23,594 nt of DNA, from positions 1 through 23,594 of the forward strand of contig JBAWVS010000043.1 of assembly GCA_037147175.1 (NCBI GenBank), read 5' to 3'. Below, piece by piece: positions 1,291 to 16,064 of this stretch. The notes under the pieces were generated by a model, which saw nothing but the letters and a program-made list of their open reading frames with translations, had not been told where the DNA came from and did no database searches. Positions within the stretch are counted from its first letter, which is position 1. Each line of letters opens with the position of its first letter. The position numbers and the translations under genes were made by a program. The stretch comes from a bacterium (GTDB lineage: Bacteria; Cyanobacteriota; Vampirovibrionia; Gastranaerophilales; UBA9971).

Positions 1291-2622
1291 TTATTTCTTT
1301 TCTTCTTTTTCGCGGATTACAATTCTGATAGGGGTTCCGAAAAACCCGAAAGATTCGCGGAGCTTGTTTTCAATATATTTTTCATAACTTTGAGTCAAAA
1401 TATCCTTGTTATTGACAAAAAGAATAAAAGTAGGAGGAGCAACAGAAGCCTGTGTTGAATAATAGATTCTTAAACGCTTTCCTTTTTGTGATGGCGGAGG
1501 ATTTAGGGATAAAGCTTCTAAAATAACTTTATTTAAAAGGTTTGTTGCGATTCTTTTATTTGTAAATTCATAAGCTTCTTGAACAGCAGGGAAAATTTTC
1601 CCTAAACGCTGTTTTGTTTTTGCGCTTATGAACAATAAAGGGACATAGTTTAGAAAAGGAGCTTCTTTTTGGATTTTTTTAGTAAAGTCGCTTACTGAAT
1701 TGGTTTGTTTATTTTCAACGGCATCCCATTTGTTCACCACAATGATAAAGGCTTTTCCGTCCTCAACGATTATCTGGCTTATTTTTTTGTCCTGATCTGT
1801 CAAACCTTCAAGAGCATCTATCATCAAAAGAGCCACATCAGCGTTTCTTATTGCTTTTAAGCTTCTTGCTACGGAAAATTTTTCAATACCGTACTCAACT
1901 TTGGCTTTTTTTCTTATGCCTGCCGTATCGACCAGAGTATAATTTACCCCGTCTACACAAAGTTCGGTATCAATGGTATCTCTTGTCGTGCCGGAAACAT
2001 CACTGACTATGACCCTGTCTTCTCCCAAAAGGGAATTTACGAGAGAGGATTTGCCTACGTTTGGTTTTCCAACAACGGCTATTTTGATTTTTTCGATTTT
2101 TTCTTCTTCGCGATATTCCGGCAAAACCTTTACAATCTCATCCAGAAGATCGCCTACATCTCCAGTTCCGTGCATAGCGGAAATCGGATAAGGCTCTCCT
2201 ATCCCGAGAGCATAAAATTCGTTTATAAGACTGTTTTTTTCCGGTGTATCAATTTTGTTTACCACTAAAAATACGGGTTTTTTAAAACCTTTTCTTAGTA
2301 AATTTGCAATATCTTCATCTGTTGCCGTAAGACCGTCTTTTCCGTCAACGAGGAAAAGAATGACATCAGCTTGTTCTGCCGCAATTTCCACCTGAGTGTA
2401 GATAGACAGCATAATTTCATCTTCCATCCCTGGAATAATACCGCCAGTGTCTATTATGGTAAATTGTCTGTTTGCCCAGTCGATGTCAAAATAAAGTCTG
2501 TCTCTTGTAACACCCGGCATATCATCAACTATGGATTCTCTTGAGCCTATAAGACGGTTTACAAAAGTCGATTTCCCGACATTTGGTCTGCCTACTATTG
2601 CAACTATCGGTTTTTTATTCAT
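1291..2622 (-). CDS. der: Ribosome biogenesis GTPase Der (EngA), double G domain
   Basis: Der is an essential GTPase needed for 50S subunit assembly. The 443-aa protein has the diagnostic tandem G domains. Domain 1 has the P-loop GRPNVGKS (11-18), DTGG (58-61) and NKID (122-125). Domain 2 has GKPNVGKS (185-192), DTAG (232-235) and NKWD (297-300). A C-terminal KH-like RNA-binding domain (about 355-443) contains the characteristic LNPPPSQKGKRLRIYY stretch, and the protein ends in a charged Lys/Glu tail. All GTPase motifs are intact and the length is normal. It is followed 26 bp later by mtnA and preceded by a 63-bp gap after the membrane-protein gene. That gap contains an inverted repeat and a TATACT-like -10 sequence, so der may have its own promoter as well as read-through from folP. 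Confidence 0.98.
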   Translation of the reverse strand: MNKKPIVAIVGRPNVGKSTFVNRLIGSRESIVDDMPGVTRDRLYFDIDWANRQFTIIDTGGIIPGMEDEIMLSIYTQVEIAAEQADVILFLVDGKDGLTATDEDIANLLRKGFKKPVFLVVNKIDTPEKNSLINEFYALGIGEPYPISAMHGTGDVGDLLDEIVKVLPEYREEEKIEKIKIAVVGKPNVGKSSLVNSLLGEDRVIVSDVSGTTRDTIDTELCVDGVNYTLVDTAGIRKKAKVEYGIEKFSVARSLKAIRNADVALLMIDALEGLTDQDKKISQIIVEDGKAFIIVVNKWDAVENKQTNSVSDFTKKIQKEAPFLNYVPLLFISAKTKQRLGKIFPAVQEAYEFTNKRIATNLLNKVILEALSLNPPPSQKGKRLRIYYSTQASVAPPTFILFVNNKDILTQSYEKYIENKLRESFGFFGTPIRIVIREKEEKK

Positions 2623-13613: not shown

Positions 13614-16064
13614 ATGAGTCTTGTCACAAAGCCCTTATTAACGATTAACTCAGAAAATTTAACCCGAATTTTAAATCAATTAAAATCCTTATATAATTTT
13701 GAAAATATTGATGAAAACAGAAAAAACTATATTATAAGTAAAGTTCAAAAATACGGTTATCTTCCATACCCGCATATAAAAGCGCTGGAAGAGTTAACAG
13801 AAGCAGAAACATTGCTTGCACTTGAAGAAAAATTTAAGCTCAATAATATATATAAAGCTGAAAAATTTGATTTTCACCCGGAAAATATCAGTCCCGTCAG
13901 TCGTGCAGGGTATAAAAGTTCTGCATGGATAAACAAAGAAGGGCATAATATAAAACTTGTAAATCTGGCAGGGCTTGGAAACGGAAATAAAACAAAAGAA
14001 CCCGGAAAATTTATTGACTGGCTCAAACAGCTTGTAACGTTGCCTTCCGGCAATATTAAAGAAGGCGTTTTAGGCACGACAATGTATTTAATTCCTTTTC
14101 ATCCGAGAGAATTCGGATGCGCATATCTTCCCAAAAGCTCGGAAGTCAGCGAAAAGCTGGAGGATGCATTTTTAAAAGAAAAAACGAAACTTGATGCAAA
14201 AAACCAGGTAAGGCTTTTTCTTGCTTTAACGCAGCTGGCAGGGCATCCGACCATGTATGATGTCCTTCCGCAGACAGGAAGGTTTTCAAAAACAATTCTT
14301 GCTGCGCCTTATGTTGCAAGATGGTTTGATATTAAGGATTTAACCGTTAAATTAACGGAAGAAGCCGAAAAAATCGCTTTAAATTTATCACAAACTCATA
14401 ATTTTATTTTTGTTAAAAAAGTTAAAAATATTTTACAGGAAGAATTATTAGGAATTTATTTACCTGTTGGAGATGATTTAAAAGAAATTTTTGATATTTT
14501 TGGTAATGAAATGCTTTTAAGGAAAAAAGAATTTTCAAAGAGAATGCTTTCAAAAGAAAATCAGGAAAAAATTTCTCAAAAAGTAAAAGAAAAAATTTGT
14601 GAAATACTCGAAAAGCCTGAAAAAGTTGAATTAATAGAAGATGATATAACAAAACAAGATGAAATTGTAGGAGAGCTTATAAAAAGCGGACTTTGGTCGG
14701 CTCCGGGCGGGGCATGGTGTTCATCAGGGGTGCCGGTATTTGATAAAATGAGTGAAGGTGAGGGTTATCCGATGTTTAGGCATTTTGATAACAAGGATAA
14801 AGATGTAACCCATTTTGCAAATCTTGATTGCCAGACACCTTATTATTTCGTTTATTTTGCGGATTGCGAGCAGAGGCTGAAGGGAGGAGGCGATGAGCCT
14901 TCGACCGAAACGCCGTTTAAGGCGAGCAACCAAGCAGCGGATTGCGAGCAGAGGATGAAAGGAAGAGGCGATGAGCCTTCGACTGAAACGCCTTTTAAGG
15001 CGGGTAATCAGGTAACAGAATATAATTGGAAAGTAATAGATTTTTATGTGAATTTTTTGAAAAAAATACAAAAAGACTATAATTTTGACGGATTCAGGGT
15101 TGATCATATTGACCATATTGTTGATGAAGTCTCTGAACAAGACGGTTTTCCTATAAGTTACAGGGCTCCCCGAAAAGTTTTAGGCTTGGCGAATAATGAG
15201 CTGAAAAAAGAAGTTTCTTATTTTGCGGCGCTCGCTGAATACATGCTCTGGGATAATTTTTTTAAAGAATATCATAAGGACATGGCTTTTGATATTCTCT
15301 GGGGAAGCGATATAATCTCTCAAAGCTCGAAAACTGTTTTGCGAATTGTGGAAGATAACGAACAGCTTGAAGAATACAATAAATCAGCCGATATTAAACA
15401 GGAAAAACTCTCTATTTTGAAAATTTATAATAATCAGGACGGAGAATTTAGAGAAATTAACCAGTATCCGGGTCAACTGGGAGAAGCCGGAGCTTTGTTT
15501 AAATGGTTTAAATACAAGTTCCTGTGCGGGGGAGAGCATTCTTCAAGACCCGTTATGTTTATAGACGGTGATGAATCTTTTACAAAAACAGGCATAGAAT
15601 CTGTAATAGGCGCAGAAGAGGCCATGAAAAGAAATAATAATTATGAATTTTTTGAAAAATTTGATGCCATAAACAGATTTGCTTTAATTAATAATGTTTT
15701 GCTGGAAGGAAAGGCTCAAATTGTTTATAGTAACAGTGAAACAGGTTTTATAAGCTGGTTGGTGCTTTCGGAGAATTTAAAAGAAAATATTTTTGTTGTT
15801 GCAAATGAAAAACCGCCGACAGAAGTTGTCAGAAATTCTCATGGTGAATTTATTACCGTCGAAAACCAAATTATTTATAATATTGAAACAGTTGTTCCTG
15901 AAGGGTTTTCGGTTGTTTCAGAATATGTCTTAAATAACGAAGATTTAAATTTTTCTGAAACAACTAAATTAAATAACCTGTCAGAGAACAAATTTTATTT
16001 TGAAAAACTTGAACCATCAGAATTTCATTTTTATAAAGTTATAAATATACCGCTTCAAAAATAA
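13614..16064 (+). CDS. GH13-like alpha-amylase-superfamily protein with tandem insert
   Basis: This large (816 aa) putative alpha-glucan hydrolase or transferase is distant from common amylases. The best catalytic signature is DGFRVDH (492-498), the GH13 region-II pattern with nucleophile Asp497. Possible partners are Glu580 in RIVEDNEQ and Asp651/Asp653 in FIDGDES. Earlier barrel-like stretches are YLIPFHPREFGCAYLP and AGHPTMYDVLPQTGRF. The last ~150 residues look like a beta-sandwich domain. No signal peptide is present, so it is probably cytosolic. Residues 416-467 are two tandem 26-residue repeats encoded by GC-rich DNA unlike the rest of the gene. They lie in the stretch leading to the catalytic Asp and look like an insertion. 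GAGGA lies seven bases before the ATG. It is divergent from the GH77-like gene. The family call is tentative; the coding call is firm. Confidence 0.65.
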   Translation: MSLVTKPLLTINSENLTRILNQLKSLYNFENIDENRKNYIISKVQKYGYLPYPHIKALEELTEAETLLALEEKFKLNNIYKAEKFDFHPENISPVSRAGYKSSAWINKEGHNIKLVNLAGLGNGNKTKEPGKFIDWLKQLVTLPSGNIKEGVLGTTMYLIPFHPREFGCAYLPKSSEVSEKLEDAFLKEKTKLDAKNQVRLFLALTQLAGHPTMYDVLPQTGRFSKTILAAPYVARWFDIKDLTVKLTEEAEKIALNLSQTHNFIFVKKVKNILQEELLGIYLPVGDDLKEIFDIFGNEMLLRKKEFSKRMLSKENQEKISQKVKEKICEILEKPEKVELIEDDITKQDEIVGELIKSGLWSAPGGAWCSSGVPVFDKMSEGEGYPMFRHFDNKDKDVTHFANLDCQTPYYFVYFADCEQRLKGGGDEPSTETPFKASNQAADCEQRMKGRGDEPSTETPFKAGNQVTEYNWKVIDFYVNFLKKIQKDYNFDGFRVDHIDHIVDEVSEQDGFPISYRAPRKVLGLANNELKKEVSYFAALAEYMLWDNFFKEYHKDMAFDILWGSDIISQSSKTVLRIVEDNEQLEEYNKSADIKQEKLSILKIYNNQDGEFREINQYPGQLGEAGALFKWFKYKFLCGGEHSSRPVMFIDGDESFTKTGIESVIGAEEAMKRNNNYEFFEKFDAINRFALINNVLLEGKAQIVYSNSETGFISWLVLSENLKENIFVVANEKPPTEVVRNSHGEFITVENQIIYNIETVVPEGFSVVSEYVLNNEDLNFSETTKLNNLSENKFYFEKLEPSEFHFYKVINIPLQK
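14859..15014 (+). repeat. Two tandem 78-bp GC-rich in-frame repeats inside a coding region
   Basis: Copy 1 is 14859-14936 and copy 2 is 14937-15014. They abut exactly and differ at 10 of 78 positions (about 87% identity by manual alignment). Copy 1 counts 47 G+C of 78 (about 60%), against roughly one third in the surrounding gene. Each encodes 26 residues starting ADCEQR and containing GDEPSTETPFKA, and 78 is a multiple of three, so the frame is kept. Copy 2 contains the inverted repeat CGCCTTTTAAGGCG (14989-15002), degraded in copy 1. The antisense strand is also open across both copies. This looks like an inserted, protein-permissive repeat element. Confidence 0.9.

Follow-up and report, generated by a model that had tools for sequence, protein, structure and literature searches.

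A tandem insert in an order-wide gene

The window, the 23,594-nucleotide stretch of DNA analysed here, comes from a draft genome of the order Gastranaerophilales and carries on its forward strand a gene with a tandem repeat in its reading frame. The features discussed are as follows.

13614..16064, + strand: host gene, encoding an 816-residue divergent GH13-like protein found across the order (~766 residues minus the insert), with orthologues in 37 other genomes, all of them lacking the insert
14859..14936, + strand: copy 1 of the element, 78-bp class, unit GCGG...AAGCA, in-frame peptide ADCEQRLKGGGDEPSTETPFKASNQA; match to the R1 covariance model at E 7e-16; a net insertion relative to congeners
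14937..15014, + strand: copy 2, in tandem and more diverged, in-frame peptide ADCEQRMKGRGDEPSTETPFKAGNQV; R1 match at E 5e-8
14853..14859, + strand: 5' junction TATTTTG, equal to the empty site TATTTTG|ACAAAAAAG of congeners, target-site duplication absent
15015..15024, + strand: 3' junction ACAGAATATA, where the A-run seen in the empty site is shorter by ~6 nt
1291..2622, - strand: der (engA) of the window genome, intact, used as the empty-site counterpart of the Der insertion in a relative (L039)

A search of 40 genomes recovered orthologues of the host gene from 37 others, and they define an order-wide protein of ~770 residues. Its GH13 signal is weak, consisting of a DGFRVDH motif and matches at E = 0.005-0.017 only, and comparison with Pfam, NCBIfam, and PDB placed it in no family at threshold. 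The earlier note had located the repeat near the active site of a GH13-like enzyme; the DGFRVDH motif is there, but the family assignment on which that position depends is weak. From its sequence, the protein apparently represents a divergent glycoside-hydrolase-like family that has so far gone undescribed.

The two abutting 78-nt copies (14859-14936 and 14937-15014) are identical at 68 positions (87%), as the earlier note had described, and a chance origin of the pair is excluded at ~1e-27 per position pair. Five of their codon differences are synonymous and four non-synonymous. The open reading frame continues across the insert with both copies in frame, and one antisense frame is open over all 156 nt, in agreement with the claim that the repeat reads through in both directions. 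The GC content of the insert is 56%, somewhat below the ~60% first proposed, while the remainder of the host gene, at 33%, matches the one third given for the surroundings.

In the orthologues that match on both sides of the insert, the flanks align to residues 415-418 and resume at residues 468-471, and the insert is present in none of them; an alignment of 19 orthologues has the same gap at this position. At the nucleotide level, the sequence in two congeners is TATTTTG|ACAAAAAAGAATA, and in the window it is TATTTTG, the insert, and ACAGAATA. The net gain is 150 nt rather than 156 because ~6 nt of the adjoining target are also missing. The comparison proposed in the earlier note, whether orthologues lack the inserted residues, consequently has a uniform answer, and its description of a gene invaded without being broken fits a frame that stays open in the window. 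Separately, the orthologue of one congener (L212, genome G001) carries at about residues 258-276 a 19-residue insertion, LAQNDNNTFKEEIEKIDLN, that is unrelated to the element and looks like a local duplication in sequence.

Structure and distribution of the repeat unit

Alignment of occupied and empty sites defined the mobile unit as GCGGATTGCGAGCWGAGGCTG, a variable hairpin, and AAYGCCGTTWNNNGCGAGCAACCAAGCA. The unit begins with GCGG, ends with CAACCAAGCA (AAGCA), and occurs in size classes of 72, 78, and 81 bp. The whole of it folds as a single long hairpin with conserved bulges. Its three stems are an outer one containing a tandem G.A mismatch, a middle one, and an apical one that is hypervariable. 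Over 39 distinct copies, 94.0% of cells were paired compared to 85.6% in shuffles, and 66 cells had changed on both sides compared to 18.7 in shuffles, with none of 500 shuffles reaching the observed values. Pairing fell to 30-45% when the partner was slid by 1-3 columns, and one pair of the middle stem has changed from A-U to U-A in 11 of the 39 copies. The outer stem is perfect in some of the copies, TTGCCGGC/GCCGGCAA, and a GAAAGC/GCTTTC stem marks another subfamily. An Rfam scan of the element gave no match at the gathering score.

The small palindrome that the earlier note had singled out, CGCCTTTTAAGGCG, does exist, but it is the whole-unit hairpin that is conserved instead. As a conserved structure, the small palindrome was rejected: its outer pairs do not form in 7 and 14 of the 39 copies, and its covariation does not exceed that of shuffles.

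A BLAST search with one unit found further copies in the window genome and ~18 in each of two congeners, so the search that the earlier note had called for returned a dispersed family. The covariance model R1, built on the 39 distinct copies, detected ~10 copies in the window genome; the congeners G001 and G002 have 17 and 21, and G003, which belongs to the next genus, has 13. Of 117 genomes of the order, 95 had at least one copy. All 73 genomes that scored positive in a phylum-wide sample belonged to Gastranaerophilales, and genomes outside the order gave no R1 match. Among the matches listed in a pattern scan of named genomes, most were titled Candidatus Gastranaerophilales or Melainabacteria, and a few were titled uncultured bacterium, Heliobacteriaceae, or Clostridiaceae. 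The element was not found in the viral contigs, phages, and plasmids searched. All of the genomes compared are drafts or MAGs.

Two local arrangements were seen in the course of this survey. Two contigs of the window genome, C63 and C82, end and begin within a shared 55-bp stretch of an element copy (L061 3953-4006 and L060 1-72) and are probably joined there; the gene ending at this junction, ThiL-like by sequence reading, would gain the C-terminal tail ADCEQRQKDGLCPTEKPFKASNQAADCEQQRGSNFK. In genome G038, contig 4 has three tandem copies with a 93-bp period at 964-1240, and several copies in this genome have an identical score, suggesting recent amplification of the element.

A further group of copies is composite, with the element nested inside a longer palindromic repeat.

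Composite copies, sense: L009, L017, L021, L181; element within a TGTCATTGCGAGG.. or TGTCATNCTGAACTTG.. repeat
Composite copies, antisense: L179, L180, L182, L183, L185, L187, L189, L025

The composites occupy long open frames as a whole, and their in-frame insertion was confirmed wherever the empty site was readable. In sequence, the flanking repeats resemble the CGTC/TGTC-tagged REP superfamily (PMC3733652), and the TGTC motif is confined to the flanking repeat of these composite copies.

Insertion sites, reading frame, and orientation

For 23 insertions, the one in the window included, a sister species was found to have the orthologous site empty. Their net length is always a multiple of three, and all 23 keep both frame and openness. 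The exception to the multiple-of-three rule, L049, is located ahead of the likely start of its gene. At the clean sites AAAG|TCAG (L028) and AAAAG|ACGG (L030), the occupied allele is longer by exactly 72 nt in each case, and no target-site duplication was seen at clean sites. None of the insertions queried against congeners was shared at the same site where the junction could be aligned. These empty sites strongly indicate that the element is mobile.

The hosts confirmed by Pfam include the Der GTPase, glutaminyl-tRNA synthetase (GlnRS), a MurE-type ligase, CoaBC, PrmC, phosphoglucomutase, a class III aminotransferase, an IlvB-type enzyme, a SIS-domain (GlmS-like) protein, DNA polymerase III delta', ComEC, branching enzyme, GH65, and L-asparaginase, among others. 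PdxA was entered at different sites in two species and TsaB at two sites in two species, while one heptosyltransferase gene carries two insertions. Placed on solved homologues, the GlnRS insert maps between residues 451 and 453 of 5bnz, and that of Der falls between 128 and 130 of 4dcs, positions that we take to be loops. AlphaFold2, run from the single sequence without an alignment, returned a pLDDT of 32 for the window protein and for GlnRS with its insert, too low for a usable model.

Across the window genus and its nearest relative genus, 39 of 57 classified copies lie in long ORFs. Since calls of copies within genes required an open frame, they form a biased set, and removal of the element from 57 non-genic copies served as the control: no validated gene proved to be interrupted out of frame. 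Removal created four long ORFs, of which L020 has its copy just behind a stop codon, L012 is the neighbour of a tandem copy, and L068 and L173 are unvalidated.

In the same two genera, divisibility of the length by three holds for 54 of 59 full-length copies, compared to 26 of 78 copies from other families (p = 1e-12), as counted by covariance-model coordinates and with the qualification that copies of one size class share ancestry and are non-independent. The rule covers all three size classes and extends to intergenic copies. When length modulo three was compared between genic and other copies of these genera, the difference was not significant (Fisher, p = 0.10), because nearly all copies there, including the intergenic ones, are multiples of three. 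The unit length of a multiple of three claimed in the earlier note was correct for the 78-bp window copies, and it holds for the 72- and 81-bp classes as well; the frame preference that it had proposed to look for is likewise present, in that copies occur both within and between genes and keep the frame within them.

Solitary copies are inserted in the sense direction far more often than antisense (24 to 2; p = 1e-6 relative to the open-frame frequency). This bias could follow from peptide tolerance, since the sense-frame peptides are hydrophilic (GRAVY ~-0.6) and the antisense ones are much less so. It could also follow from the A-rich 5' flank of the insertions (52% A compared to 36%, p = 3e-4), since coding strands here are A-rich.

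Possible modes of movement and relation to known elements

The inserted sequence is real, dispersed, structurally conserved, and in frame. We consider it very likely that the window insert is a tandem pair of copies of a palindromic mobile element that is non-autonomous and behaves like the Rickettsia palindromic elements, and the suggestion in the earlier note of a protein-permissive mobile repeat of that kind is supported by the dispersed copies, the frame preference, the empty orthologues, and the palindromic fold. The element would be moved in trans by a protein and transferred into A-rich DNA ahead of a G. Transfer as a folded single strand seems the most likely route, because the hairpin is kept by covariation and the clean sites have no target duplication. 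Copies that break genes would be purged by selection, and the family of the window lineage may have become frame-compatible, through a length divisible by three and two open sense frames, and so spread within genes. The sense peptides predicted from it are hydrophilic (for example, ADCEQRLKGG..PFKASNQA), and the inserted peptide probably forms a surface loop that is tolerated and adds no new function.

The best-surviving alternative specifies the mobiliser: the element could be of REP type and be moved by a RAYT/IS200-IS605-like Y1 tyrosine transposase, which acts on a single-strand hairpin and targets a short motif. The bulged hairpin and the clean sites without target duplication are compatible with such a system, some copies sit within TGTC-tagged REP-like repeats, and copy number is higher in genomes with Y1_Tnp (median 5 compared to 2, p = 0.007, with genomes treated as independent of phylogeny). 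However, Y1_Tnp was found in only 37 of the 117 genomes and is lacking in 12 of the 22 copy-rich ones. It was not found in G001-G003, the drafts with the most copies inside genes, which are 80-88% complete and hold 17, 21, and 13 copies, and the window genome has only a broken Y1 fragment. No element copy lies near the Y1 loci examined, no cognate Y1 transposase flanked by the repeat was found in the drafts examined, and the unit has no GTAG tag. On these observations, we regard this mobiliser as rather unlikely.

It is less likely still that the element is a MITE-like passenger of the Mu/Tn7-type transposase and ATPase modules of the order. Copies do occur at several different places in or beside Mu-type operons in at least 8 genomes, as well as in ORFs of other records. 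DDE-type transposition would be expected to leave target duplications and terminal inverted repeats, though, and neither a target duplication nor the terminal inverted repeats of an insertion sequence were seen at the clean sites. The Mu-type module was not found in the 80-88% complete drafts of G001-G003, copy number was not significantly higher in genomes with the module (p = 0.10), and the variable operon positions are those expected from repeated insertion into a tolerant multi-copy gene.

Within these operons, copies are in frame at the C-terminus, in internal linkers, or at the N-terminus of the encoded proteins, or lie between the two genes (L271, L272, L273, L274, L275, L151, L067, and L098), and in L276-L279 they lie beside the Mu/Tn7-type genes. 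Either the genes are tolerant and multi-copy or there is a functional link. The Mu-type transposases of L278 (1250-3058) and L279 (1200-3008), both on the minus strand, carry another in-frame repeat-like peptide, CHSEFISESATPETLKQVQGD, which is absent from their close relatives L276 and L277.

That the structured insert escapes translation, being spliced out or hopped over by a translational bypass like that at mitochondrial byp elements, is very improbable: a compact conserved hairpin within genes such as der and glnS might invite this reading, but splicing or bypass would not need the frame and openness that the insertions with an empty sister site preserve without exception, the orientation and frame of the inserts vary, and neither an Rfam intron nor any other Rfam family was matched. 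An ordinary protein repeat, arisen by tandem duplication within one amylase-like gene, would account for the two copies in the window but is refuted by the insert-free host orthologues and the same sequence in dozens of unrelated genes and intergenic sites. Both conditions under which the earlier note would have given up its own reading, a genome with no other copies and the inserted residues in distant orthologues, are false.

Returning to a mobile palindromic element, we compared it with described families. Rickettsia palindromic elements (Ogata et al. 2000, 2002) are described as ~100-150 bp palindromes with a long stem-loop, dispersed and inserted in frame in unrelated conserved genes (PMC10969869, PMC2229807, PMC3767692); the last of these sources also has the inserts modelled in solvent-exposed parts of proteins and all Rickettsia orthologues carrying the insert at the same place (PMC3767692). 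The element here shares with them dispersal in and between genes, in-frame insertion, and a whole-unit stem-loop. It differs in being shorter (72-81 bp) and in residing in another phylum. The likeness proposed is one of kind. It differs also in that the insertions compared here are absent from congeners with a readable site, and in that even the intergenic copies of the window lineage mostly have lengths divisible by three. Wolbachia palindromic elements are likewise protein-coding palindromes (PMC3767692, PMC3733652), a likeness judged by description and found in a different host.

GTAG/CGTC-tagged REPs are 20-40 bp long, have 5-13 bp stems, and lie mostly between genes, sometimes within them (Di Nocera et al. 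2013, PMC3733652). Several bacteria are known to have intragenic REPs, and CGTC REPs, whose motif is often TGTC, have no dedicated transposase (PMC3733652). The element resembles these in being a small palindrome sometimes found in genes, and the CGTC REPs in particular in the matter of the dedicated transposase; in contrast, it measures 72-81 bp, has no GTAG or CGTC/TGTC tag of its own, and has about two thirds of its copies in genes in the window genus and its nearest relative. In the 107-bp form of the NEMIS/Correia elements of Neisseria, an ORF-containing class enters genes and a stop-bearing class stays intergenic (PMC2229807), but NEMIS have terminal inverted repeats and target duplications, and their host is unrelated. 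We found no description of the present element in the papers searched, with subscription journals mostly outside the search, and we read it as a new sequence family, in a new phylum, of the RPE-like kind.

A further-reaching proposal is that the palindromic mobile lineage itself evolved compatibility with proteins. Multiples of three and two open hydrophilic sense frames, together with an A-rich, G-ended target on the coding strand that sets the sense direction, would make genes its habitat, into which it would still be inserting by way of an undescribed transposition system. We put this forward tentatively, as a possibility somewhat more doubtful than not.

In-frame insertion of palindromic elements into genes has been discussed mainly as an oddity of Rickettsia and Wolbachia, where the insertions have aged enough to obscure the original event. 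The element described here is apparently an independent case in a large uncultured order, with exact empty sites and several congeners to compare, and it is of interest chiefly because its insertions are young enough for study. Unit boundaries, the absence of target duplication, target preference, and the frame rule can be read directly. Two old questions thereby become open to testing: by what route these elements move, and whether they are suited to genes in advance or simply persist in them. Recently gained stretches of 24-26 residues would be present in proteins of this order, some of them likely essential, and these bear on annotation and on ideas of how proteins gain new segments.
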